A DNA stretch of 38,986 nucleotides from Candidatus Sumerlaeota bacterium (GTDB lineage: Bacteria > Sumerlaeota > Sumerlaeia > SLMS01 > JAHLLQ01). Positions within the stretch are counted from its first letter, which is position 1, and each line of letters opens with the position of its first letter. The DNA lies in the NCBI GenBank assembly GCA_021772755.1, contig JAJFLJ010000132.1, forward strand, positions 1 through 38,986, written 5' to 3'. The notes under the pieces are model-generated. The model worked only from the letters and a program-made list of their open reading frames with translations. It was not told where the DNA came from and made no database searches. Below are positions 9,174 to 33,625 of the stretch, piece after piece. A program made the position numbers and the translations under genes.

Positions 9174-10499
9174 TCACTTCGACCGTACTTCGAGCAGTGC
9201 GCCCGCCAGATCCTCGACGTGCAGATCCGGGGCGCAGATGCGCCCTTGGCCGTCCGCGAGAATCAGCCGCGGGATGCGGTCGATGCCGAGTTCGTTCGCA
9301 TAGGCCGAGCGCCAGCCCGCTTCCTCGCAGATCAGAACGCTGAAGAACCCGAGCGAATCCGCGTATCCCCGCGCCGCCCCGATGTCGCGGTCGAGCGAGA
9401 GCGCCAGCATCGTGACGCCCTGGCCGTACGCCTGCCGAAAGAGCTCGGCGTTCTCTTCGAGAAGCCGGCGGCTCTTCGGGTCCCACGAGGCCCACACCAC
9501 GACGAGCATCGGCGGTCCGTTGAAGTCGGAAACCCGGAACAGGTTCCCTTCGGAATCGGTCATGGCGGCCTGGTAGGGAAAGTACCTCCGCTCGGGAGCC
9601 GGAATGAGAATCTTCCGGTCCGGATCGGCCGGCGCGGGGCGCGCGTACACGCGGCGGAGCTCCGCGATGCGGTCCTTCAGGAGATCGCTGGAGGGATTGC
9701 GCAGCACGCGTTCCCGCTCCGCTTCGGTGAGGACGGGCGGCTGCGAACCCGGCCGCAGCCGCGCGACGGGTTCGGCGATGGCCGGCGCGGGGGGCGACGG
9801 ACTCTGCAGTTCCCTCAGTCCCCACTCGATGAGCGTCAGCGAGTTGTGGCTTCGCCCCCCGTACGAACGGTCGATGTCCTTGGTGCCGAGAACCATCAGC
9901 AGCCCCCGGCCGATTCGGCGCGTCGCGACGACCGGTTCGCCGGATTCCGCCGCGCGGTTCCAAACGCGCCATTCCGGCGATCGCAGTTGCAGCGGACGCA
10001 TCGGCGTCGCGGAGGACCACACGTTGCCGTTCAACGGCCCCTTGCGGGGCTGGTCCGGCGTGAAGGCGCCGGCGACGGTTCGCGTCGAATAGCTGAAGTC
10101 GAAGCGCGTGCCCAGGTAGTCGAAGTTGTCGAGCACTCTGGCCGGGCTGTCGCCGTCGGCCAGCAGCACCAGCAGACCGCCGTCGTAGATCATCCGGTGG
10201 AACGCTTCCATGTCGTCGCGAAAGAACTCCATGGCCTCCGGAAACTCGTCGATATAGAAGACTTCGGAACGGCGAATCAGATCGCGGTCGGGCGGCGTCG
10301 TCGCGATGTCCAGATAGTAGATGTTGTTGTTGAGATCGACCCGGCGGGGGCGGGCGTTGGGCTTCTCCGACCGGTACCCGATGGTGATGCCGATGCTGCG
10401 CTGGGCGGCGGCCGGCGAGGGGGCGAGAAGAAGCCCCGACAGAACCGCCACGAACAGCATTCCAGACTTCAGCATCGCGGAACCGATCGGTCGGGACAT
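9174..10499 (-). CDS. Exported two-domain protein: glutamine-amidotransferase-like fold plus cysteine-less thioredoxin domain
   Basis: A 441-residue exported protein with a signal peptide ending near residue 32 (LLLAPSPAAA). Residues about 35-235 look like the DUF4159/GATase1-like fold seen in planctomycete-type proteins (RRVDLNNNIYYLDIA, EVFYIDEFPEAMEFFRDD, YDGGLLVLLADGDSP, IGRGLLMVLGTKDID); this assignment is tentative. Residues about 300-441 are a clear redoxin-type thioredoxin fold: MTDSEGNLFRVSDFNG, PPMLVVVWASWDPKSRRLLE, VTMLALSLDRD, GIDRIPRLILADGQGRI with the cis-proline. Where TlpA relatives have WASWCPPC, this has WASWDPKS: both catalytic cysteines are lost. It is the last gene of the FHA-kinase operon, 14 bases after the kinase stop, suggesting a role in the same signalling or envelope process. 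Confidence 0.75.
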   Translation of the reverse strand: MSRPIGSAMLKSGMLFVAVLSGLLLAPSPAAAQRSIGITIGYRSEKPNARPRRVDLNNNIYYLDIATTPPDRDLIRRSEVFYIDEFPEAMEFFRDDMEAFHRMIYDGGLLVLLADGDSPARVLDNFDYLGTRFDFSYSTRTVAGAFTPDQPRKGPLNGNVWSSATPMRPLQLRSPEWRVWNRAAESGEPVVATRRIGRGLLMVLGTKDIDRSYGGRSHNSLTLIEWGLRELQSPSPPAPAIAEPVARLRPGSQPPVLTEAERERVLRNPSSDLLKDRIAELRRVYARPAPADPDRKILIPAPERRYFPYQAAMTDSEGNLFRVSDFNGPPMLVVVWASWDPKSRRLLEENAELFRQAYGQGVTMLALSLDRDIGAARGYADSLGFFSVLICEEAGWRSAYANELGIDRIPRLILADGQGRICAPDLHVEDLAGALLEVRSK

Positions 10500-10513
10500 G
10501 GAACGAAGGCGGG

Positions 10514-11635
10514 TCAGGAGGTCAGCTTCAGACCGATGAACACCCCGAAGAACAGCATCGCGATGGCCACGAGAACGCCGATTCCCACCATCACCTTCAC
10601 GCTCATGCCGCTCTGCTGCCGGGGTGCGGAGGGAACCGAGGTGGTGGACTCGCGGGCCGGCTTGCGTTCCGCCGGCTTTTCCGGAGCGCCCGCCGCCGCA
10701 GGCTTCTTCGCCGCGCCGGGTCTGACGGATTCGGGAAGCTTCGACTCGTCGACGACGCCGTCCTCCTGCGAAAACTCCAGAAGCATCTCCTGAGCCTGCT
10801 TCGCCGTGGCGAACCGCTTGTCGGGGTGCTTCTGCAGCATGGCGGAGACGATCAGGCTCAGCGACTCGGGCACCGACGGCTCGACCTCGTGTACCGGCGT
10901 CGGCGCGTCGTGCACGATGCTGCGCATCGTCTTCAGATCGTCGGCCCCCAGGAAGGGGTGCTTCGCGGTGAGCATCTCGTAGAGCACGGTTCCGAGGGAG
11001 AAGATGTCGGACCGGCCGTCGGGGCGGACGTTGAACTGGTCGGAAATCTGTTCCGGCGCCATGTAGGCCGGCGTGCCGACGGCGAATCCGCTGGCGGTCA
11101 GAGTCTCGTCCTTGCGGCCCTTCGCGAGACCGAAGTCGGTGAGCACGACGCGGTTGGTCTCGCGCTCGATCAGGACGTTGCCGGGCTTGATGTCGCGGTG
11201 CAGAATGCCCTTCTCGTGGGTATAGTCCAGCGCCCCCGCGACGGTGCCGATGATGCGCGCCGCCTCGGCGGGCTTCCACTTCCGCCCCTTGCGGCGCTCG
11301 CTTTCCAGGTCGTACCCGTCGATGTACTCCAGAGCGAGATACTGGAGCGGGCCGGCGTCCTCGAACTCGAAGAGCTGGGCGATGTTGGGGTGGCGGATCT
11401 GGGCGAAGGTCTTCGCTTCGCGCTCGAAGCGGCGAAGGCTGTTCTCGCGCGACGCGCGTTCGGGAGAGAGCGTCTTGATGGCGACCTTGCGGTCGAGCTT
11501 CGTGTGCTTGGCGAGATAGACGATGCCCATGCCGCCGCGGCCCAGTTCGCCCACCAGCTCGTAGTTGCGGCGGGCGAAGAGAGCGGCGAGCCGCTGGCTG
11601 GAGGAGGATCGGGACGTGCCTGGGGACTGGTCCAT
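10514..11635 (-). CDS. Membrane-anchored Ser/Thr protein kinase (PknB-like)
   Basis: A 373-residue Hanks-type kinase with intact catalytic motifs: the Gly loop LGRGGMGIVYLAKH (31-44), VAIK with Lys54, catalytic loop ILHRDIKPGNVLI, LTDFGLAKG, activation segment ending GTPAYMAPEQIS, and SDIFSLGTVLYEML. Residues about 285-345 are a Pro/Ala/Lys linker, and residues about 347-370 form a single transmembrane helix (VKVMVGIGVLVAIAMLFFGV) followed by only a few residues. Unlike PknB/PrkC it has no extracellular PASTA domain. The upstream FHA-GAF gene, 35 bases away, is a natural phosphothreonine-binding partner, and the downstream exported protein may be the periplasmic component. All three lie on the minus strand as one operon. 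Confidence 0.95.
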   Translation of the reverse strand: MDQSPGTSRSSSSQRLAALFARRNYELVGELGRGGMGIVYLAKHTKLDRKVAIKTLSPERASRENSLRRFEREAKTFAQIRHPNIAQLFEFEDAGPLQYLALEYIDGYDLESERRKGRKWKPAEAARIIGTVAGALDYTHEKGILHRDIKPGNVLIERETNRVVLTDFGLAKGRKDETLTASGFAVGTPAYMAPEQISDQFNVRPDGRSDIFSLGTVLYEMLTAKHPFLGADDLKTMRSIVHDAPTPVHEVEPSVPESLSLIVSAMLQKHPDKRFATAKQAQEMLLEFSQEDGVVDESKLPESVRPGAAKKPAAAGAPEKPAERKPARESTTSVPSAPRQQSGMSVKVMVGIGVLVAIAMLFFGVFIGLKLTS

Positions 11636-11670
11636 CGGGAAACGGCGACCTTACGCAGGTGCGGGTGCGT

Positions 11671-12750
11671 TCAGCAGAGGGTTTCCTGCTGGCCGGACCC
11701 TTCGGTGCCGATTCGCTCCGCGACCGCTTCGCGGATGCGGGACGTGTCGCCCCGCTGGGCGGCGGCACCGCTGAGAAATCCACCCAAGACTTCTGCGCAC
11801 CGCGTCGCAAGGTCAACCGACTTCGCGGACAGCTTCGCCGGTCTGCCGGGGTTGTCGAAATACAGCGCTCCGAGAAGTCCCTCCTCGCCACCGCGAACCG
11901 GAGCGATCAGGATCGACCGATGATCCCCGGTCGCGTCCCCCTCCTGCCCCGAAAAATGCGGGTCGTTCCTCATCGAGGGAATGTGGACCGTCCGGCCCGC
12001 CTCCATCGCGTCCTGCAGCAGCGACTCGAAACGCGGCGGAATCTGCCGCGGCCATCCCGACACCGCCAGCCCGTGGGTGGAGGGAACGCGAAGTACCCCC
12101 GACTTCGACCTCAGCACGACGGCGGCGTTTTCCGCGTCCGTGGCGGAAACCAGGAACTGAAGAACCTCGTGGTACACGCTCGCGGGAGTCGGCGCGTACT
12201 GGAATATCTCGTGGAACGCGTTCAGGGTTCCCAGCAGCCGAAGCCCCGTTTCCGTCTCCTCCAGGTGCGCCGCGATGTTTCCCAGCGACTTGCCCGTCTG
12301 CATGACCTCTTCCGTTCGGACGAGTCCCGACGAGAGGCGCTTCTCGATGATCTTCAGTTCGCCGATCAGATCGTGCAGCTTCTGGACTTCGGACCTCATC
12401 AGCGGCTGGCTCAGCCGCGGACTGAGGACCGACTTGCCTTCGAGCGATTCCGCGTCCAGGCGGCTGACGAAGCGCATCACCGTCGAACCGAAGGCGATGT
12501 GGTCGCCCTCCTTCAGTTCCGCGCGGCGCAGCCGGTTGTCGTTGAGATAGGTTCCGTTACGGCTGTTCAGGTCGGTGACCAGCCAGTTTTCGCCTTCGTT
12601 GACCAGGCGTGCGTGATAGCTCGACACGCGCGGGTCCTTGAGCACGATATCGTTGTCCGCGGCGCGGCCGATCCGATAGCTTTCGTCCCGCTCCAGCTCG
12701 ACGCTGTAGGCCCAGTTGCCCTCGCCACTGATACAGAGATATCGAGCCAT
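11671..12750 (-). CDS. FHA-GAF signalling protein
   Basis: A 359-residue cytoplasmic protein. Residues about 1-95 are an FHA domain with its conserved residues: IGRAADNDIVL (Gly28-Arg29), VSSYHARL (Ser43, His46) and LNSRNGTYLN (Asn65-Gly66-Thr67); FHA binds phosphothreonine. Residues about 105-180 are helical, likely coiled coil (LHDLIGELKIIEKRLSSGLV). Residues about 195-340 are a GAF domain (YAPTPASVYHEVLQFLVSAT, AAVVLRSKSGVLRVP, SILIAPVRGGEEGLLGALYF). This FHA-linker-GAF order is otherwise known ahead of sigma54-activator or kinase outputs; here the protein ends without an output domain, and the kinase encoded 35 bases downstream may be its partner. Its ATG lies 65 bases from the divergent GT2 gene, so the two promoters must be close together. 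Confidence 0.92.
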   Translation of the reverse strand: MARYLCISGEGNWAYSVELERDESYRIGRAADNDIVLKDPRVSSYHARLVNEGENWLVTDLNSRNGTYLNDNRLRRAELKEGDHIAFGSTVMRFVSRLDAESLEGKSVLSPRLSQPLMRSEVQKLHDLIGELKIIEKRLSSGLVRTEEVMQTGKSLGNIAAHLEETETGLRLLGTLNAFHEIFQYAPTPASVYHEVLQFLVSATDAENAAVVLRSKSGVLRVPSTHGLAVSGWPRQIPPRFESLLQDAMEAGRTVHIPSMRNDPHFSGQEGDATGDHRSILIAPVRGGEEGLLGALYFDNPGRPAKLSAKSVDLATRCAEVLGGFLSGAAAQRGDTSRIREAVAERIGTEGSGQQETLC

Positions 12751-12815
12751 CCTTCAGGACCTCAGAGCCTGACGGAATCAGAGGCGGGGCAGGTCGTCAA
12801 GGCAGGTGTGATACT

Positions 12816-13805
12816 TTGAGCAACCCCTCCGGAATCAATGCCTCGCGTCCCCGGGTCGCTGTCGTGGTTCTCGCGTGGAATTCCGCCCGGGACCTGGAGC
12901 GCTGCCTGGATTGCGTGGCCGCGTCCCAAGGCGTTCGCCTGGAAGTCATCGTCGTCGACAACGCCTCGGGGGACGGGAGCGCCGACATCGCCGCCGCCCA
13001 TTCCGTCGGCGCGCGGATCCTCCGCAAGCGCCGCAATCTCGGCTGTGCCGGAGGCAACAACGCCGGTTGGCGGGCGGCCCGCAGCCCCTTCGTCGTGTTT
13101 CTCAACCCCGACTGCTTCGTCGGGCCGGAAACCCTCGCGCGCCTAGTCGAGCCTCTGCGCCGCGATCCATCCGTCGGCGCCACGGGGGGAAAGCTCTATT
13201 ACCCCGATACGACCGTCATCCAGCACGCCGGCGGCGTGCTCTTTCCCAACGCCATTGCGGACCACCCCGGCGCGGGGACCGAGGACGACGGTTCCTTCCG
13301 CCAGGACCGCGAGTGCGACTACGTGACGGGCGCGCTGACGGCCGTGCGGCGGAACGATCTGCGGTCGCTGGGCGGGTTCGATCCCGAATTCTTCCCCGCC
13401 TACTACGAGGAAGCGGACCTTTGCGAGCGGCTGCGGCGATCGGGAAAGCGCATCCTCTTCGTGGCGAATTCGGTCGCCTACCACCGCGAGTCCGTCGGAG
13501 TCGGGGGGCGCCAAAGCCGGCGGATGCTTCGCATCGGAACCGCCTCGCGGGTCCTGTTCCTCCTGAAGAACCGCGGCGTTCCGCAACTGGTGGCGCGCAC
13601 GATACCTGCGGAAGCGCGATGGATGGTTCGCCGTCACGGGGCGGGGGTCCGCGCCGAAACGCTTAGGGCCTGGCTTGTTGGAGTGGGATTTGCTCTCCGC
13701 TGCCTGGCGCGACGCAGCCGCCGCCCCCCGGGAATACGAACGAAGCTCAGGCCCGCCGCCCCTGCGGCGCGCGACGCCGACACGAATCGAACGCAATCGC
13801 GATGA
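12816..13805 (+). CDS. Family 2 glycosyltransferase
   Basis: A 329-residue GT-A fold enzyme of the rhamnosyltransferase-like GT2 group. It shows VAVVVLAWNSARDLERCL, VIVVDNASGDGSADI, the nucleotide-sugar segment RRNLGCAGGNNAGWRAA, metal-binding FLNPDCFVG, the acceptor region DYVTGALTAVRRNDLRSLGG, and FPAYYEEADLCERLRRSGKR with the catalytic-base acidic pair. The C-terminal 80 residues are basic with a weak hydrophobic segment (WLVGVGFALRCLA). The start is TTG at 12816, with AGGTG a few bases upstream. Its stop overlaps the first ABC gene as ATGA. The link to an exporter suggests synthesis of an exported glycolipid or oligosaccharide, by context only. Confidence 0.92.
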   Translation: MSNPSGINASRPRVAVVVLAWNSARDLERCLDCVAASQGVRLEVIVVDNASGDGSADIAAAHSVGARILRKRRNLGCAGGNNAGWRAARSPFVVFLNPDCFVGPETLARLVEPLRRDPSVGATGGKLYYPDTTVIQHAGGVLFPNAIADHPGAGTEDDGSFRQDRECDYVTGALTAVRRNDLRSLGGFDPEFFPAYYEEADLCERLRRSGKRILFVANSVAYHRESVGVGGRQSRRMLRIGTASRVLFLLKNRGVPQLVARTIPAEARWMVRRHGAGVRAETLRAWLVGVGFALRCLARRSRRPPGIRTKLRPAAPAARDADTNRTQSR

Positions 13806-26981: not shown

Positions 26982-27911
26982 TCAATCGGAGGCAAGCGGA
27001 GATCCGACTCCGCCGAGCGTGAGCCGCAGCCCCTCGTCGAGCGCGACCTGCGGTTTCCAGCCCAGCGCCATCAGGCGCGATGCGTCGCCTCGCGAATGGC
27101 GAACGTCGCCGGGGCGGGGCGGCTTGTGGTCGATGGCGGAGGAGCTCGCCGACAGGGCGACGATGCGTTTCGCCAGGTCGTTGACGGTGATGCGCGTGTT
27201 GCAGGCCGCGTTGTAGACGCCGCGCGCGCCGGCGCTTTCGGCGGCGAGAATGTTGGCGGCGGCGATGTCGCCGACGAAGATGAAGTCGCGCGTCTGCTCG
27301 CCGTCGTCGAAGACGACCAGCGGTTCGTTCGCGCGCGCCTTCTCGGCGAAGATGGCGATCGCCGCAGCGTACGGCGAATTCGGGTCCTGGCGCGGACCGT
27401 ACACGTTGAAGTACCGCAGCGACACCGTCGGCACTCCCATCAGCGCGCGCCAGCATTCCATGTAGTGTTCGGCGGCGAGCTTCGTGATAGCGTAGGGGCT
27501 GACGGGCGCCGGCAGATCCGTCTCCGAATGCACCGGCCGGTCCGCCATGCCGTAGACGGCCGACGTGGAGGAGAAAACGACCTTCTTCGCGCCGCAGGCC
27601 TTCGCCGCCTTCAGCACGTTGAGCGTCCCCAGCACGTTGATGGACTCGGTGACGTCGGGCTTCTCGACGGACTCGGGAACGCTGACGAGCGCCGCGAGAT
27701 GGTGGATGTAGTCGCAGCCCTCCGCGCATTCGCGAACGAGACCTTCGTCCTCGACGCTTCCCTCGACGAACCGGCAGTCGATGCCCTCCAGGTTCGCGCG
27801 GTGGCCGGTGCGCAGACTGTCGAGCACGACGACCTCCGCGCCGCGCGCGGACCACGCCGCGGCAAGATGGCTTCCGATGAACCCGGCTCCGCCGGTAATG
27901 AGGACCTTCAC
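26982..27911 (-). CDS. NAD-dependent sugar-nucleotide epimerase/dehydratase (extended SDR)
   Basis: A 309-residue extended short-chain dehydrogenase, closest in pattern to UDP-glucose/UDP-GlcNAc 4-epimerases. Features are the NAD-binding VLITGGAGFIGSHLAAAW (Gly7, 10, 13), LDSLRTGHRANLEG, HHLAALVSVPESVEKP, catalytic Ser-Tyr-Lys in SSTSAVYG and SPYAITKLAAEHY, RYFNVYGPRQDPNSPYAAAI and FDDGEQTRDFIFVGDIAAAN. The start is GTG at 27909-27911, overlapping the methyltransferase stop as GTGA, with MKVLITGG as the expected N-terminus. It probably supplies UDP-galactose or a related sugar for surface glycans. Why it is coupled to DNA-methylation genes is unclear. Confidence 0.93.
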   Translation of the reverse strand: MKVLITGGAGFIGSHLAAAWSARGAEVVVLDSLRTGHRANLEGIDCRFVEGSVEDEGLVRECAEGCDYIHHLAALVSVPESVEKPDVTESINVLGTLNVLKAAKACGAKKVVFSSTSAVYGMADRPVHSETDLPAPVSPYAITKLAAEHYMECWRALMGVPTVSLRYFNVYGPRQDPNSPYAAAIAIFAEKARANEPLVVFDDGEQTRDFIFVGDIAAANILAAESAGARGVYNAACNTRITVNDLAKRIVALSASSSAIDHKPPRPGDVRHSRGDASRLMALGWKPQVALDEGLRLTLGGVGSPLASD

Positions 27912-29251
27912 GTTTCCAGCCTCGCTCTCTCGCTGTTTGTCTTCGACTCGCTGCCGGACATCGCGCGCATGCCACGGCGGGTTCTCTGCGCGATGGTGTT
28001 CGACGGAACGCCGTAGTGTTCGCAGGCCTGCTGCATGTTCAGCGACAGAAGCCCCTCGTCGCCGTGGGCGAGCGTCTCCGCCGGCTTCTTCGCATCGATG
28101 CCCATTGCCGCGACGATGCGCGACGCCACGGCCCGCGCGAGAAGCGGCGGCACGGAGTTGCCGATCTGCCGCGCGCCGTGCCATTTCGTGACGTGGAACC
28201 GGAACCAGTCGGGATAGGAATGCAGGCGCGCCGCCTCGCGAACGGTGATGCAGCGGGCATGGTGCGGATGAATGGGGCGGGGCGAGGTGAACGCGCCGCG
28301 ATCGCTGGCGGTGCCCGCCCGCAGGGTGTTGCAGATGCCCGAGGGGTCGAGCTTGAAGAAGCGGCTGACGGGTTCCGTTTCCCCCCCGGCGGTCTTGGCG
28401 AAGCGCTTGCGCGAGAGCGCGGTGTGTTCGGAACGGAGACTCGACGTCATCGTGTTCGCGCGGTGGCTGCGCCGGTGGGAGCGGTCTGCCGGGTCCTTCG
28501 CCAGGCCGCGAAGAAACCGCGCGTAGGCAGAGGCGCGCCCGAAGCGGACCTTCGCGGAATCCGACGTTCGCAGTTCCTCGTAGTCCTCGGCGTCGGGCAG
28601 GTCGCCGAGCGCGTCGGCGACGGTGGGAACCGGCGGCAGCCCGGCGGGATTCTTCGCGCCAGGCATCGCGGTGAGCGCGTCGGGGTAGTCGGGCGCGGCG
28701 AGAGGGGCGCGCGCGCCGAGAAGAAAGAGACGTTCGCGGCTCTGCGGCACGCCGTAGTTCGCGGCGTTCAGAACGCGCGTCGGCTGGCGAACGTCGTAGC
28801 CGATGGCCTCGAACTCGGCCAGCAACTCGACGAGAAAGCGGCGATGCCGCCCCACCGTCAGACCCTTGACGTTCTCGAAGACGAAGTATTTCGGACGCAA
28901 CTCGTCGACGATCCGCAGGAAATGCCCGACCAGGGAATTGCGCGGATCGTCGAGCGCGCGCTTGCCCATCATCGAAAACCCCTGGCAGGGCGGCCCGCCG
29001 AACACGACGTCGATGCCGCCGGGCCGCACGCCGGCCGCTTCCAGGATCTCGCGCCCCGTCACGCTGTCGGCCGACTTGCAGATCACCGCGCAGCGCGGAA
29101 AGTTGTACTCGTGCGTCGCGCAGTGGACGGGATCGAGTTCCACGCAGGCGCGGACGTCGAAGCCCGCCTGCTCGAAACCGAGGGACATTCCGCCGGCCCC
29201 GGCGAACAGATCGATCCCGACGGGCCGCCGCGCTGTCGTCTTTCTAGCCAT
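27908..29251 (-). CDS. DNA (cytosine-5) methyltransferase
   Basis: A 447-residue C5 methyltransferase with the ordered motifs: I IDLFAGAGGMSLGFEQAGF, IV VVFGGPPCQGFSMMG with nucleophile Cys89, VI FVFENVKGL, VIII VPQSRERLFLLGAR, a target-recognition region of about 150 residues (with HRRSHRANTMTSSL, FFKLDPSGICNTLRAGT), IX ITVREAARLHSYPDWF and X RQIGNSVPPLLARAVA. The target sequence cannot be read from sequence. After motif X there is an extra tail of about 50 residues including MQQACEHYGVPSNTIAQRTR, which looks like a small helix-turn-helix. Its ATG overlaps the vsr stop by eight bases, as in other Vsr/C5-methyltransferase pairs; no restriction endonuclease gene is visible. Confidence 0.95.
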   Translation of the reverse strand: MARKTTARRPVGIDLFAGAGGMSLGFEQAGFDVRACVELDPVHCATHEYNFPRCAVICKSADSVTGREILEAAGVRPGGIDVVFGGPPCQGFSMMGKRALDDPRNSLVGHFLRIVDELRPKYFVFENVKGLTVGRHRRFLVELLAEFEAIGYDVRQPTRVLNAANYGVPQSRERLFLLGARAPLAAPDYPDALTAMPGAKNPAGLPPVPTVADALGDLPDAEDYEELRTSDSAKVRFGRASAYARFLRGLAKDPADRSHRRSHRANTMTSSLRSEHTALSRKRFAKTAGGETEPVSRFFKLDPSGICNTLRAGTASDRGAFTSPRPIHPHHARCITVREAARLHSYPDWFRFHVTKWHGARQIGNSVPPLLARAVASRIVAAMGIDAKKPAETLAHGDEGLLSLNMQQACEHYGVPSNTIAQRTRRGMRAMSGSESKTNSERARLET

Positions 29252-29651
29252 CGAGAAACCTCGCCAACCGTCGTTCGAGCTTTTCCGGATCCTTCGTCTC
29301 GCACTCCCAGACCGTCGCCACGCCCCACCCCGCCCGGCGCAGACGGCGGACGTTCCGTAGATCGCGCTCGACGTTTCGCCGGAACTTGTCCTCCCAGAAT
29401 CTCTTCCGCGTCTTCGGCGTCGTGGCAAGGCGACATCCCCTGTGGCGGTGCCAGAAACATCCGTGCACGAAGACGACCCTGCCGTGGCGGGGCAGAACGA
29501 TGTCGGGCTTGCCGGGCAGGTCCGGCGCGTGCAGCCGGAACCGGTAGCCCATTCGGTGGAGAAGGCTGCGCACGACCAGCTCCGGCGCGGTGTCCTTCGA
29601 CCCCACGCGGCCCATCAGCCAGCTGCGATGCTCCTTGCTCAGCCTGTCCAT
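29244..29651 (-). CDS. vsr: Very-short-patch mismatch repair endonuclease
   Basis: A 135-residue Vsr endonuclease, full length for the family. It nicks 5' of T in T:G mismatches that arise when 5-methylcytosine deaminates within a C5-methyltransferase target. Diagnostic parts are LSKEHRSWLMGRVGSKDTAP, LPGKPDIVLPRHGRVVFVHG with the catalytic Asp, CFWHRHRGCRLATTPKTR with the zinc and catalytic His/Cys residues, and WEDKFRRNVERDLRNVRRL, then WGVATVWECE. It precedes and overlaps the cognate methyltransferase gene by eight bases. It is the first gene of the minus-strand run, 60 bases from a divergent methyltransferase gene. Confidence 0.97.
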   Translation of the reverse strand: MDRLSKEHRSWLMGRVGSKDTAPELVVRSLLHRMGYRFRLHAPDLPGKPDIVLPRHGRVVFVHGCFWHRHRGCRLATTPKTRKRFWEDKFRRNVERDLRNVRRLRRAGWGVATVWECETKDPEKLERRLARFLDG

Positions 29652-30452: not shown

Positions 30453-31038
30453 GCCATCGACTCGCAAACGCACGACGGCCAACTCGAAACCACAACGCAA
30501 AGACGCGGAGCGCTTTCCAGGCACTGAAGTGCCTGGCAAGCATCGGCCGAGCCCGGCGGACTCTGGTTTCCGAGGGGCGGGGGTCGCTCGCAGAATGTCC
30601 AACGCGCACTCGCCACCCACCACTCGCACCGACTCCTCGCCCCGGCAGGGGCGACGGCTCCGAAGGAGCCGAACAATGGTAGCCCGGGGCGCGAGTCCCG
30701 GCAGGGACGAGCGAGCCCCGGGTCGGTCGGCGCAGAAGAATCCAGGGCTGGCGCGGTCTTCGCCGGTTCGGGCGAGCGCAGCGAGGCCCGAACCGAAACG
30801 CGAAGAACGTGACAGCCCGAGGCGGTGTTTAAACGGAGGAAGGGCGGACGAAGAGGAGGATGAAGACGATAACGAAGAGCGCAGGCGGACAGCCCGTTTC
30901 CATCGCGAGGCGCTGTCGCTCCGGTACGGTTCGGGGCGGAACCGCCCGCTGCGGGGCCACCCCGCGCCCTTTCCCCTGGACACTCTTCGGACACCGTGGG
31001 ACTCAGCGGTCGATCATCGTCACCGGATCGGTTGCAGA
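30453..31038. repeat. Cluster of GC-rich stem-loops (REP-like) in a 586-base gap
   Basis: No gene is supported here. Instead there are several compact hairpins: CCAGGCACT-GA-AGTGCCTGG (30517-30536, 9-bp stem), TCGCCCC-GGCA-GGGGCGA (30637-30654), GGCTCC-GAA-GGAGCC (30656-30670), and CGGTTCGGGC/GCCCGAACCG with a 12-base loop (30764-30795, 10-bp stem). Phrases such as GTAGCCCGGGGCGCGAGTCCC and ACGCAAAGACGCGG resemble dispersed repeats of PVC-type genomes; this resemblance is from memory. The last 200 bases before the pseudokinase gene are purine-rich with no clear promoter. Confidence 0.6.
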
Positions 31039-32463
31039 ATGACGTCGGACGCAGCGCCCGAACAGACATGGCTGGAACCTGGAAGCGCATGGGACGCCTG
31101 GCGCGTGGATCGTCTGCTGGACGCGTGGACCGCCGTCCAGACCTACCTGCTGACCCACTCCGAGGACGGTTCCCGGGCGCTGCTGCACCTCTTCGACCGC
31201 AACCTGAGCCGCCGCAGCGGCTTCGAGGAGGAGGTCTTCGCCCTCAGCAAAGTCAACGAGCGCGTCTCCCATCCCGTCCTCGCCCGCGTGATCAAGCAGG
31301 GAAAGCGCAAGGACCGCCTCTTTCTTCTCTGCGAGCGCGCAGGGGCCGAGACCCTCGCCGACCGCATCGCGGGCAACCGCATCTCCATCGAGGACGTCAT
31401 CAACGTCTCGCGCTCCGTCGGCGGAGCGGTCTTCGCCTGTCACCGCGCCAGGTACGTCCACGGCGACGTGCGGGCGGACACGATTCTGATGGGCGAGGAC
31501 GGATCGCTCCAGATCCGCTGCCCCGGGATACTGCCGCTCGTCTGGTCCTCCGTCGGAAAGCACGATCTCGACGGACGGGACGAGTTCGCCCCGGAGCTCT
31601 CCCACGGCCGCCAGCCGAGCCCGCGCTCCGACGCGTATTCCTTCGCGATGGCCCTGCGAAGCGCCCTTCGCGTCGCCACCCCGCGGCCGCCCGACCATCT
31701 CGACATGGACCTCAGCGAAATCATCGACGCGGCCCTCGCCCCCGACGCGGCGGCGCGCACGGACGACGTCCGAAGCCTCGCGCTGGAAGTCGCCAATCTT
31801 CTCGGCGGGACGATCGGAGAGGTCGAAACCCGCGAGGAGGAGATCGCTCCGAAGAAAACCGCCGTCGCGCCAAAGACGCTCGCGATCGGCGGAGTCGCCG
31901 CCGGACTCGCGGTGCTGGTCGCCGTGGCGGTTCTGCTTCCGCGCGGAAACGGAGACACGCCCGTCGCGACGGACGAACATTCCGTTCCGGCGGCCGCTCC
32001 CGTTCCCGCAGAAATGCCCGAACCCGAGCCGACACCGCTCCCGACGCCATCACCCACTCCCGCCGCGACGCCCTCGCCCACCCCGACTCCGACACCAACA
32101 CCCGTTCCAACGCCGAGTCCCACGCCGCCGCCCTCGATTTCCTGGGAGGACGCGGCGAACCACACGGCTTCCGGCCTGCGGGAGGCGGAAAGCGTCGTCA
32201 TGATCCTGCTGGCGTGCGAATCCGACGCGTGCCGGAACTTCGAGGAGGACGTGCTTTCCGATCCGGCGCTCGTCGCCGCGACGGAGTCCGGGGTTCTTCT
32301 GGTGCGCGAGGCGAAGGGAACCGACGGCGATCTGGCGAAGGCGTGGAGCTCTATCGCGTCGCCCGAGGTGATTCTGCTGAAGAGCGACGGCACCGTCGCG
32401 GCGCGATACACCGCCGGCAACACGGCGTCGCAGATCGCCTACACGATCCGGCTGCTGAAGTAG
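31039..32463 (+). CDS. Pseudokinase-TM-Pro/Thr linker-thioredoxin-like fusion
   Basis: A 474-residue protein. Residues 1-about 260 have a protein-kinase fold but lack catalysis: the VAIK lysine is absent (ALLHLFDRNL), the loop HRDxKxxN reads VHGDVRADTILM near 138-149, and the DFG position reads SLQIRCPGIL. Residues about 281-301 are a TM helix (AIGGVAAGLAVLVAVAVLLP). Residues about 320-365 are a long Pro/Thr/Ser linker with repeated PTPSPTP units, typical of exposed cell-surface spacers. Residues about 368-474 are a thioredoxin-like domain (VVMILLACESDACRNFEEDV, IASPEVILLKSDGTVAARY), with C-x4-C instead of CxxC. The N-terminus is thus cytoplasmic and the thioredoxin fold outside. It converges with a second thioredoxin-like gene, one base apart. 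Start ATG at 31039. Confidence 0.85.
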   Translation: MTSDAAPEQTWLEPGSAWDAWRVDRLLDAWTAVQTYLLTHSEDGSRALLHLFDRNLSRRSGFEEEVFALSKVNERVSHPVLARVIKQGKRKDRLFLLCERAGAETLADRIAGNRISIEDVINVSRSVGGAVFACHRARYVHGDVRADTILMGEDGSLQIRCPGILPLVWSSVGKHDLDGRDEFAPELSHGRQPSPRSDAYSFAMALRSALRVATPRPPDHLDMDLSEIIDAALAPDAAARTDDVRSLALEVANLLGGTIGEVETREEEIAPKKTAVAPKTLAIGGVAAGLAVLVAVAVLLPRGNGDTPVATDEHSVPAAAPVPAEMPEPEPTPLPTPSPTPAATPSPTPTPTPTPVPTPSPTPPPSISWEDAANHTASGLREAESVVMILLACESDACRNFEEDVLSDPALVAATESGVLLVREAKGTDGDLAKAWSSIASPEVILLKSDGTVAARYTAGNTASQIAYTIRLLK

Positions 32464-32464
32464 G

Positions 32465-33625
32465 CTACTGCTGCAGCCGCAGGAGCTGCGCGACCTCTTC
32501 GGGGCGGAGCGACGAGCTGCGGAAGAGCACCTCGCCGCCGGAACCCAGGATCATCGTGGCGGGCAGCTGGTACACCTCGTACTGCTTCAGCAGCTCCGGG
32601 TTCGACGCTCCGTCGATCTTCCCGAAGACGATGTGGTGCATGCGCCGCAGTTCGTCGTTCCTTTCCAGCGCTTCGGCGAACGTGAGAGAGACGGGCACGT
32701 CCGGAGAGCACGCCACGACGAAGAGCTTCTTGTTCTCCGCGCGGGCGATCTTCGACGCATCCCCGAAATCCATCAGCAGCCGCCCGCTCCTCGCGTAGGT
32801 GGCCGCCTGCGCCGCCGGCGACGCCGCAGCGGCGCGCCGGCGCGCCGCGCCCACCGGGGTCTGCACGACGTGCGGGGGAAGAAGCGAGCCGGAGAGATGG
32901 GCGGGCTCGGCGATGCGAAGCTGCAGCTTGCCGCGATAGTTCTGGACCAGACCCGTCGCGAAGACCGGCGCGCCGGTCTGCGTCAGTTCCGCCGGCGGAT
33001 CGTCGGACCAGAAGACGATCTCGATTCTGCCGGCCGAATCGCCGGTCGTGATCACGTTCGGCGCGCGTTCGTTCCAGGACGGCTTGTAGGCCATGACCGT
33101 TCCGGCGTAGGAAACTTCCATGTCCACCATTTCGGGGAAGCGCGGAATGTCGGCCGCGTGGAAATATCCGTGCTCGTCGGTGGAGGGAAGCCCGCCCTCT
33201 TCCGGGGAATGAATGTGGTCGTAGCCCTCGATGCGAATCGTGTCCGGCCCCTTCGCGCGAATCACGAGCATGCCGTTCCAGTCGTGGAGCGTGCCCTTCG
33301 CCGTGACGGAAAGCCCCACCGCCGGATACCCGTAGGGACCGTGCACGGTGCGCTGGACATCGGGCATGTAGCCCACGACGACGGGAGGAGCCACGTCCGG
33401 CGGGGTCAGCGTGATCATGGTCGGTTCGGCTGCGGAGGTGGAGGGGGCGACGCTGGCGACGGTGCCGAAGATGGCGACGTCCTGGCCGGCAAGGGCCCTG
33501 GACACGTACCGGGCATCCACCGCCCCCGCGAACGGCTCGAAGGCGGATGACGGACGAACGAGCAGTGCAAGAAAACAGGCCAGTGCGAGAATGGCACGAC
33601 GATGGGCGCGCGGACGAACGGACAT
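32465..33625 (-). CDS. Exported protein with C-terminal thioredoxin-like domain
   Basis: A 386-residue protein with a signal peptide (ILALACFLALLVRPSSA, cleavage near residue 28). The middle (about 30-270) is beta-rich with repeated strand pairs such as VAIFGTVASVAPSTS and GLSVTAKGTLHDWNG, and VSYAGTVMAYKPSWNER, VFATGLVQNYRGKLQLRIAE, which suggest tandem OB-fold-like (nucleic-acid/sugar-binding type) domains; that is a guess. After an Ala/Arg-rich linker, residues about 290-386 are a thioredoxin_7-like domain (KKLFVVACSPDVPVSLTFAE, YEVYQLPATMILGSGGEVLF). Only one Cys remains, in ACSPDVP. This domain aligns by eye with the C-terminal domain of the convergent pseudokinase. AGGGG precedes the ATG at 33625. 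Confidence 0.75.
   Translation of the reverse strand: MSVRPRAHRRAILALACFLALLVRPSSAFEPFAGAVDARYVSRALAGQDVAIFGTVASVAPSTSAAEPTMITLTPPDVAPPVVVGYMPDVQRTVHGPYGYPAVGLSVTAKGTLHDWNGMLVIRAKGPDTIRIEGYDHIHSPEEGGLPSTDEHGYFHAADIPRFPEMVDMEVSYAGTVMAYKPSWNERAPNVITTGDSAGRIEIVFWSDDPPAELTQTGAPVFATGLVQNYRGKLQLRIAEPAHLSGSLLPPHVVQTPVGAARRRAAAASPAAQAATYARSGRLLMDFGDASKIARAENKKLFVVACSPDVPVSLTFAEALERNDELRRMHHIVFGKIDGASNPELLKQYEVYQLPATMILGSGGEVLFRSSSLRPEEVAQLLRLQQ

Follow-up and report, generated by a model that had tools for sequence, protein, structure and literature searches.

A membrane pseudokinase of Candidatus Sumerlaeota with a predicted thioredoxin-like outer domain that lacks the nucleophilic cysteine

Organization of the locus

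A 474-codon open reading frame occupies positions 31039–32463 (+) of the stretch of Candidatus Sumerlaeota DNA analysed here (38,986 nucleotides, hereafter the window). Reading of the frame and its translation showed that it is open throughout, and it is a genuine gene. Its ATG at 31039 lies only about 10 residues ahead of the region shared with an ortholog in a congener, and the start is thus correct or almost so. The features of the gene and of its tail-to-tail neighbour are as follows, with the evidence for each in brackets:

31039..32463 (+): whole gene, 474 amino acids; predicted pseudokinase, transmembrane (TM) helix, Pro/Thr stalk and thioredoxin-like domain (open reading frame and ortholog)
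31072..31824 (+): predicted pseudokinase domain, residues ~12–262 (Pfam, phmmer, profile and alignment matches)
31186..31188 (+): position of the VAIK lysine, occupied by His50; Tyr in the ortholog (kinase alignment)
31459..31482 (+): catalytic loop HGDVRADT, with Asp143 present and the loop Lys and Asn gone (kinase alignment)
31516..31527 (+): RCPG where DFG is expected (kinase alignment)
31876..31941 (+): predicted TM helix, residues ~280–301 (hydropathy)
31945..32133 (+): Pro/Thr-rich stalk, residues 303–365 (composition)
32134..32460 (+): predicted thioredoxin-like domain, residues 366–474 (hhalign, HMM, AlphaFold model and PDB match)
32215..32232 (+): Cys393-x4-Cys398, with Ser395 at the nucleophile position (alignment; conserved in L009)
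32465..33625 (−): exported OB-fold-like neighbour, tail to tail, with its own C-terminal thioredoxin-like domain without CxxC (conserved synteny)

An earlier note, made from the DNA letters, had described one membrane helix and a Pro/Thr-rich linker in this protein, and both descriptions hold: the single helix has a mean hydropathy of 2.65, and the 63 residues of the stalk include 24 Pro and 12 Thr. A Lys-rich flank on the N-terminal side of the helix suggests that the kinase part is on the inner side of the membrane. From the charge distribution and from exported relatives we infer that the thioredoxin-like domain lies outside the cell, a location that fits the presence of related domains on exported, signal-peptide-bearing proteins.

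No FHA or kinase gene was seen directly beside the pseudokinase gene, an Rfam scan of the locus returned no match and no NCBIfam family scored above its cut-off. The 586-bp gap 5′ of the gene, which corresponds to 47 bp in the congener, contains two dispersed repeats (window 30500–30880) with more than 20 matches across the genome, most copies being ~74–90% identical. Between the epimerase and methyltransferase genes lies a pair that resembles, by inspection, a cytosine methyltransferase and Vsr (window 27908–29651, −). The corresponding stretch of the congener contains nothing that matches this pair, which is probably a lineage-specific insertion or loss.

Conservation and selection in a congener

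The single congener compared carries a full-length ortholog (L009/L049, 10321–11820, −) that is 56% identical and has an intact frame, the same domain order and the same residue losses. The two genomes share the succession of a methyltransferase, the pseudokinase, the tail-to-tail OB-fold/thioredoxin-like protein, a MerR regulator and a radical SAM protein. Beyond the congener, no further ortholog was found among 39 genomes of the class; a first contig scan with the whole protein as query gave no relative, and gene order is not conserved outside the genus.

In the ortholog pair, the kinase part has a dN/dS of 0.305/1.99 and the thioredoxin-like part one of 0.293/1.83; dS nears saturation, which makes the ratio approximate. 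The two parts are equally constrained, dN being ~0.16 of dS, and the juxtamembrane/TM segment is under weaker constraint (0.595/1.23). These values argue for purifying selection on both domains and bear on the possibility that the missing motifs reflect local decay of a receptor kinase gene. The gene does evolve faster than its neighbours (56% versus 72–88% identity), as decay would predict. However, the earlier note had named homologues with intact kinase motifs as the sign of decay, and the congener instead shows the same order, the same C-x4-C and the same degenerate motifs. Because the frame is intact in two species with shared losses, and dN is well below dS in both domains, decay is very unlikely and largely refuted.

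A predicted kinase fold that has lost most catalytic residues

The kinase-fold N terminus proposed in the earlier note is borne out by several searches, which predict a Hanks-type fold. Pfam Pkinase (PF00069) matches residues 65–224 above its curated cut-off (E = 5e-9), and a single-sequence phmmer search against PDB kinases gives E = 5.9e-8. A profile that combines the 474-residue protein with its ortholog and with L016, another pseudokinase, has PknA (2.3e-22), PknE (3.1e-20) and StkP among its best PDB matches, and hhalign against active kinases from the same class reaches 99.4%. The similarity spans both lobes and is weaker in the N-lobe; the AlphaFold model of this part, made from a two-row alignment, has a pLDDT of only 40, and the fold is predicted from sequence.

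Motifs were read from an alignment with 30 kinases; aligning the window proteins alone puts the activation segment in the wrong place. The glycine loop is absent in both orthologs, the β3 (VAIK) lysine is replaced by His50 (Tyr in the ortholog) and DFG by RCPG (RPPG in the ortholog), with loss of the DFG Asp. The catalytic loop reads HGDVRADT here and HGDISPET in the ortholog: the loop Lys is replaced by Arg (Ser in the ortholog) and the loop Asn by Thr, and the His and the catalytic Asp143 are retained, as are APE and the helix-F Asp. The losses of the VAIK lysine and of DFG, both claimed in the earlier note, are thus confirmed, but the HRD motif that it listed as missing survives as HGD. Of the β3 Lys, HRD Asp, loop Asn and DFG Asp, the HRD Asp alone remains. 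By its motifs we classify the domain as a predicted pseudokinase with the His and the catalytic Asp in place.

Retention of Asp143 leaves some room for nucleotide binding, and a nucleotide might be bound through Arg160 and Asp143 and a phosphate or other group transferred. Such residual or altered catalysis would be in keeping with the DLHK pseudokinases, which also keep the catalytic Asp and have been modelled to bind ATP without the β3 Lys (PMC12599244). Nevertheless, none of the glycine loop, β3 Lys, loop Asn and DFG Asp is left and the ortholog has Ser where Arg replaces the loop Lys here, and we regard catalysis of this kind as highly improbable.

Among described pseudokinases, the DLHK group shares the retained Asp and the loss of the ATP- and metal-binding motifs, but its members have no TM helix and keep the loop Asn (PMC12599244), whereas a TM helix is present here and Asn is replaced by Thr. 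The pseudokinase domain of Mycobacterium tuberculosis MviN (ActPs3) is, like ours, a Hanks-fold pseudokinase that is linked to the membrane and shares its chain with a further domain (PMC12599244). MviN, however, crosses the membrane several times, acts in peptidoglycan synthesis and has a carbohydrate-binding domain, whereas the 474-residue protein is single-pass; ActPs3 is also defined by the loss of all motifs including HRD (Lsidhpsr in MviN), and HGD is kept here. GLW does not take the place of HRD, unlike in the GLW pseudokinases. Judged by its motifs and layout, the protein therefore appears to lack a defining feature of each of these three groups.

L016 (G001:C22; L050 8494–10044, +) is a second membrane pseudokinase of the genus, in which the Lys is kept (VFIK), the catalytic loop reads YGDLHPN and GGYG stands for DFG. 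No counterpart was found in the window's own genome. We considered whether L016 also ends in a thioredoxin-like domain: its pseudokinase part is borne out, but a match of the end-domain behind its Pro/Thr stalk to the thioredoxin-like domains is not supported (hhalign probability 2%). In a kinase tree both proteins sit on very long branches, and the tree supports neither a common nor a separate origin.

A thioredoxin-like domain without its nucleophile

The last 109 residues match none of the Pfam thioredoxin families. Nevertheless, hhalign against related domains reaches 97.6% (E = 3e-12), and an HMM made from eight related Sumerlaeota domains, with the 474-residue protein left out, recovers its C terminus at 1.3e-10 in a genome search. 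The AlphaFold model of this domain has thioredoxin topology at moderate confidence (mean pLDDT 69.6), among PDB structures it matches DsbD C-terminal domains best (DsbD-gamma; E = 4.9e-5, TM-score 0.60–0.68) and the Pro of an SPE motif aligns with the cis-Pro. The thioredoxin-like C terminus read from the letters in the earlier note, and the structure model proposed there as a check on it, therefore agree.

CxxC is absent, the site reading SDAC here and SAVC in the ortholog. Ser395 occupies the nucleophile position, Cys398 the resolving position and Cys393 is extra; all three are conserved in the ortholog. The C-x4-C pointed out in the earlier note is thus present and conserved, but it is not a stretched CxxC, because only Cys398 stands at a canonical position. 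Sequence and model together support a thioredoxin-like fold without the nucleophile Cys, which shares fold and cis-Pro with Thioredoxin_7 (PF13899) and DsbD-gamma but differs in the replaced nucleophile and in the missing Pfam thioredoxin score.

The earlier note knew of no described class of thioredoxin-bearing pseudokinase, but PknE (Rv1743) of M. tuberculosis provides a precedent. PknE combines a kinase (residues 1–289), a TM helix (337–359) and an external thioredoxin-fold domain (377–566) in one chain (PMC3792642), the same order as here, and its kinase structure (2h34) ranks with the top PDB hits of the pseudokinase profile. Whereas PknE has an active kinase and a CPPC DsbA-like domain, both active sites here appear disabled, and a Pro/Thr stalk carries a shorter outer domain of the Thioredoxin_7/DsbD-gamma kind.

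PknE has been linked to nitric oxide stress (PMC3792642), and a redox-sensing receptor on the outline proposed for it would have Cys393 and Cys398 form and break a disulfide, or bind a metal, and so change the partners of the pseudokinase. These are the sole external cysteines of the protein and both persist in the ortholog, which speaks for such a sensor. Against this, both orthologs have Ser in place of the nucleophile and relatives throughout the class mostly retain one Cys only, and we consider redox sensing unlikely.

A class-wide set of end-domains mostly without the nucleophile cysteine

The outer domain is one member of a set that spans the class, a point that the earlier note had missed. 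The thioredoxin-like profile has matches in 37 of the 39 genomes, with up to 22 per genome. CxxC is missing in 54 of the 56 proteins read out, a sample drawn with a profile of Cys-less members and biased toward them, and most of the 56 end within 25 residues of the domain; ordinary Thioredoxin_7 proteins are likewise present in the class. Across 57 aligned rows, one of them E. coli thioredoxin for reference, the nucleophile Cys is lost in nearly all (Ala 17, Val 11, Ser 10), the resolving Cys is retained in 33 and the cis-Pro in 49. Loss of the nucleophile with retention of the cis-Pro is expected if a substrate- or peptide-binding surface persists without chemistry.

These domains are very divergent (about 15–25% identity). 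Relatives within the class pass the Pfam cut-off for Thioredoxin_7, the same profile finds mostly CxxC proteins in other phyla, and a limited library search found no counterpart of the Cys-less set. Their N-terminal partners vary, from Kelch-like and other β-propellers, OB folds and carbohydrate-binding-like sandwiches (all named by sequence inspection) to a multihaem cytochrome and the pseudokinase (both by Pfam matches). The wider discovery, as predicted from these alignments, is a class-wide set of mostly C-terminal, nucleophile-less thioredoxin-like domains on varied exported proteins, with the pseudokinase as one user. Examples are L054–L102 and the neighbouring protein at window 32465–33625 (−). 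An inverted duplication as the source of the end-domains in the pseudokinase and this tail-to-tail neighbour was rejected: they are ~20% identical to each other, no better than to others.

In L051 (G000:C71), an active-looking Ser/Thr kinase (10737–13136, −) ends in a multi-TM segment with His residues that looks by eye like a b-type cytochrome. It is followed after 3 bases, in an apparent operon, by a multihaem cytochrome c7-like protein (9537–10733, −), which continues into a Pro/Thr stalk and ends with a thioredoxin-like domain of the Cys-less kind.

The position of most sampled domains at the extreme C terminus, behind unrelated N-terminal parts and in nearly every genome, would suit a shared envelope attachment module. 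The pseudokinase protein would then be an inner-membrane organiser comparable in role to EssB/YukC, which, as a TM pseudokinase, recruits a secretion machine (PMC12599244). EssB/YukC likewise has degraded motifs and a structural role (PMC12599244), but no thioredoxin-like domain is described there and no secretion machine was seen here. The low identity among the domains argues against such docking, as does the lack of any link found to export or anchoring machinery; moreover, a protein restricted to one genus cannot be a universal hub. We find this role doubtful. A broader proposal, that the Cys-less thioredoxin fold serves the Sumerlaeota envelope as a general module for binding or docking at the C terminus of its proteins, through which the membrane pseudokinase of this genus reports on or organises an envelope network, is put forward as speculative.

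A possible receptor-scaffold

We favour, at an even chance, a single-pass receptor-scaffold of the inner membrane in which the disabled thioredoxin-like domain binds an envelope protein and the disabled kinase binds a cytoplasmic partner. The earlier note had the domain order and the pseudokinase call right, and its idea that the outer domain senses or binds a partner while the inert kinase fold relays through binding is still the best inference. Outside, the stalked domain without a nucleophile would bind a protein without catalysing thiol exchange. Inside, the kinase fold, probably incapable of ordinary Mg-ATP phosphotransfer, would pass a signal or position a complex through cytoplasmic partners, perhaps an active Hanks kinase or an FHA protein. 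That both orthologs have lost the glycine loop, the β3 Lys, the Lys and Asn of the catalytic loop and the DFG Asp speaks for this reading, and there is published precedent for each half: the external domain of PknE (PMC3792642) and the MviN pseudokinase, which does not bind ATP and is a scaffold acting through PknB and FhaA (PMC12599244). Counting against it are the retention of Asp143, dispensable for a pure scaffold, the two conserved external Cys, which could be redox active, the single further ortholog, from the same genus, the lack of an adjoining FHA or kinase gene and the low confidence of the kinase model (pLDDT 40).

The kinase–TM–thioredoxin order (PknE) and membrane pseudokinases (MviN, EssB/YukC) are already known; what appears to be new is their combination with both halves disabled. 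The literature searched, which leaves most subscription journals outside its coverage, yielded no paper that describes a pseudokinase–TM–thioredoxin-like protein or treats thioredoxin-like end-domains of Sumerlaeota. Kinase and thioredoxin, the two halves of a known enzyme pair, have seemingly both become binding domains that selection maintains, and with this receptor it becomes testable how a pseudokinase receptor can signal in the absence of chemistry. The disabled end-domains would amount to a new module of the envelope in a phylum that is uncultured.

Elsewhere in the window (10514–12750, −), an active-looking Ser/Thr kinase with a C-terminal TM helix adjoins a gene that is FHA-like by inspection; the two are a possible partner set for the pseudokinase scaffold.
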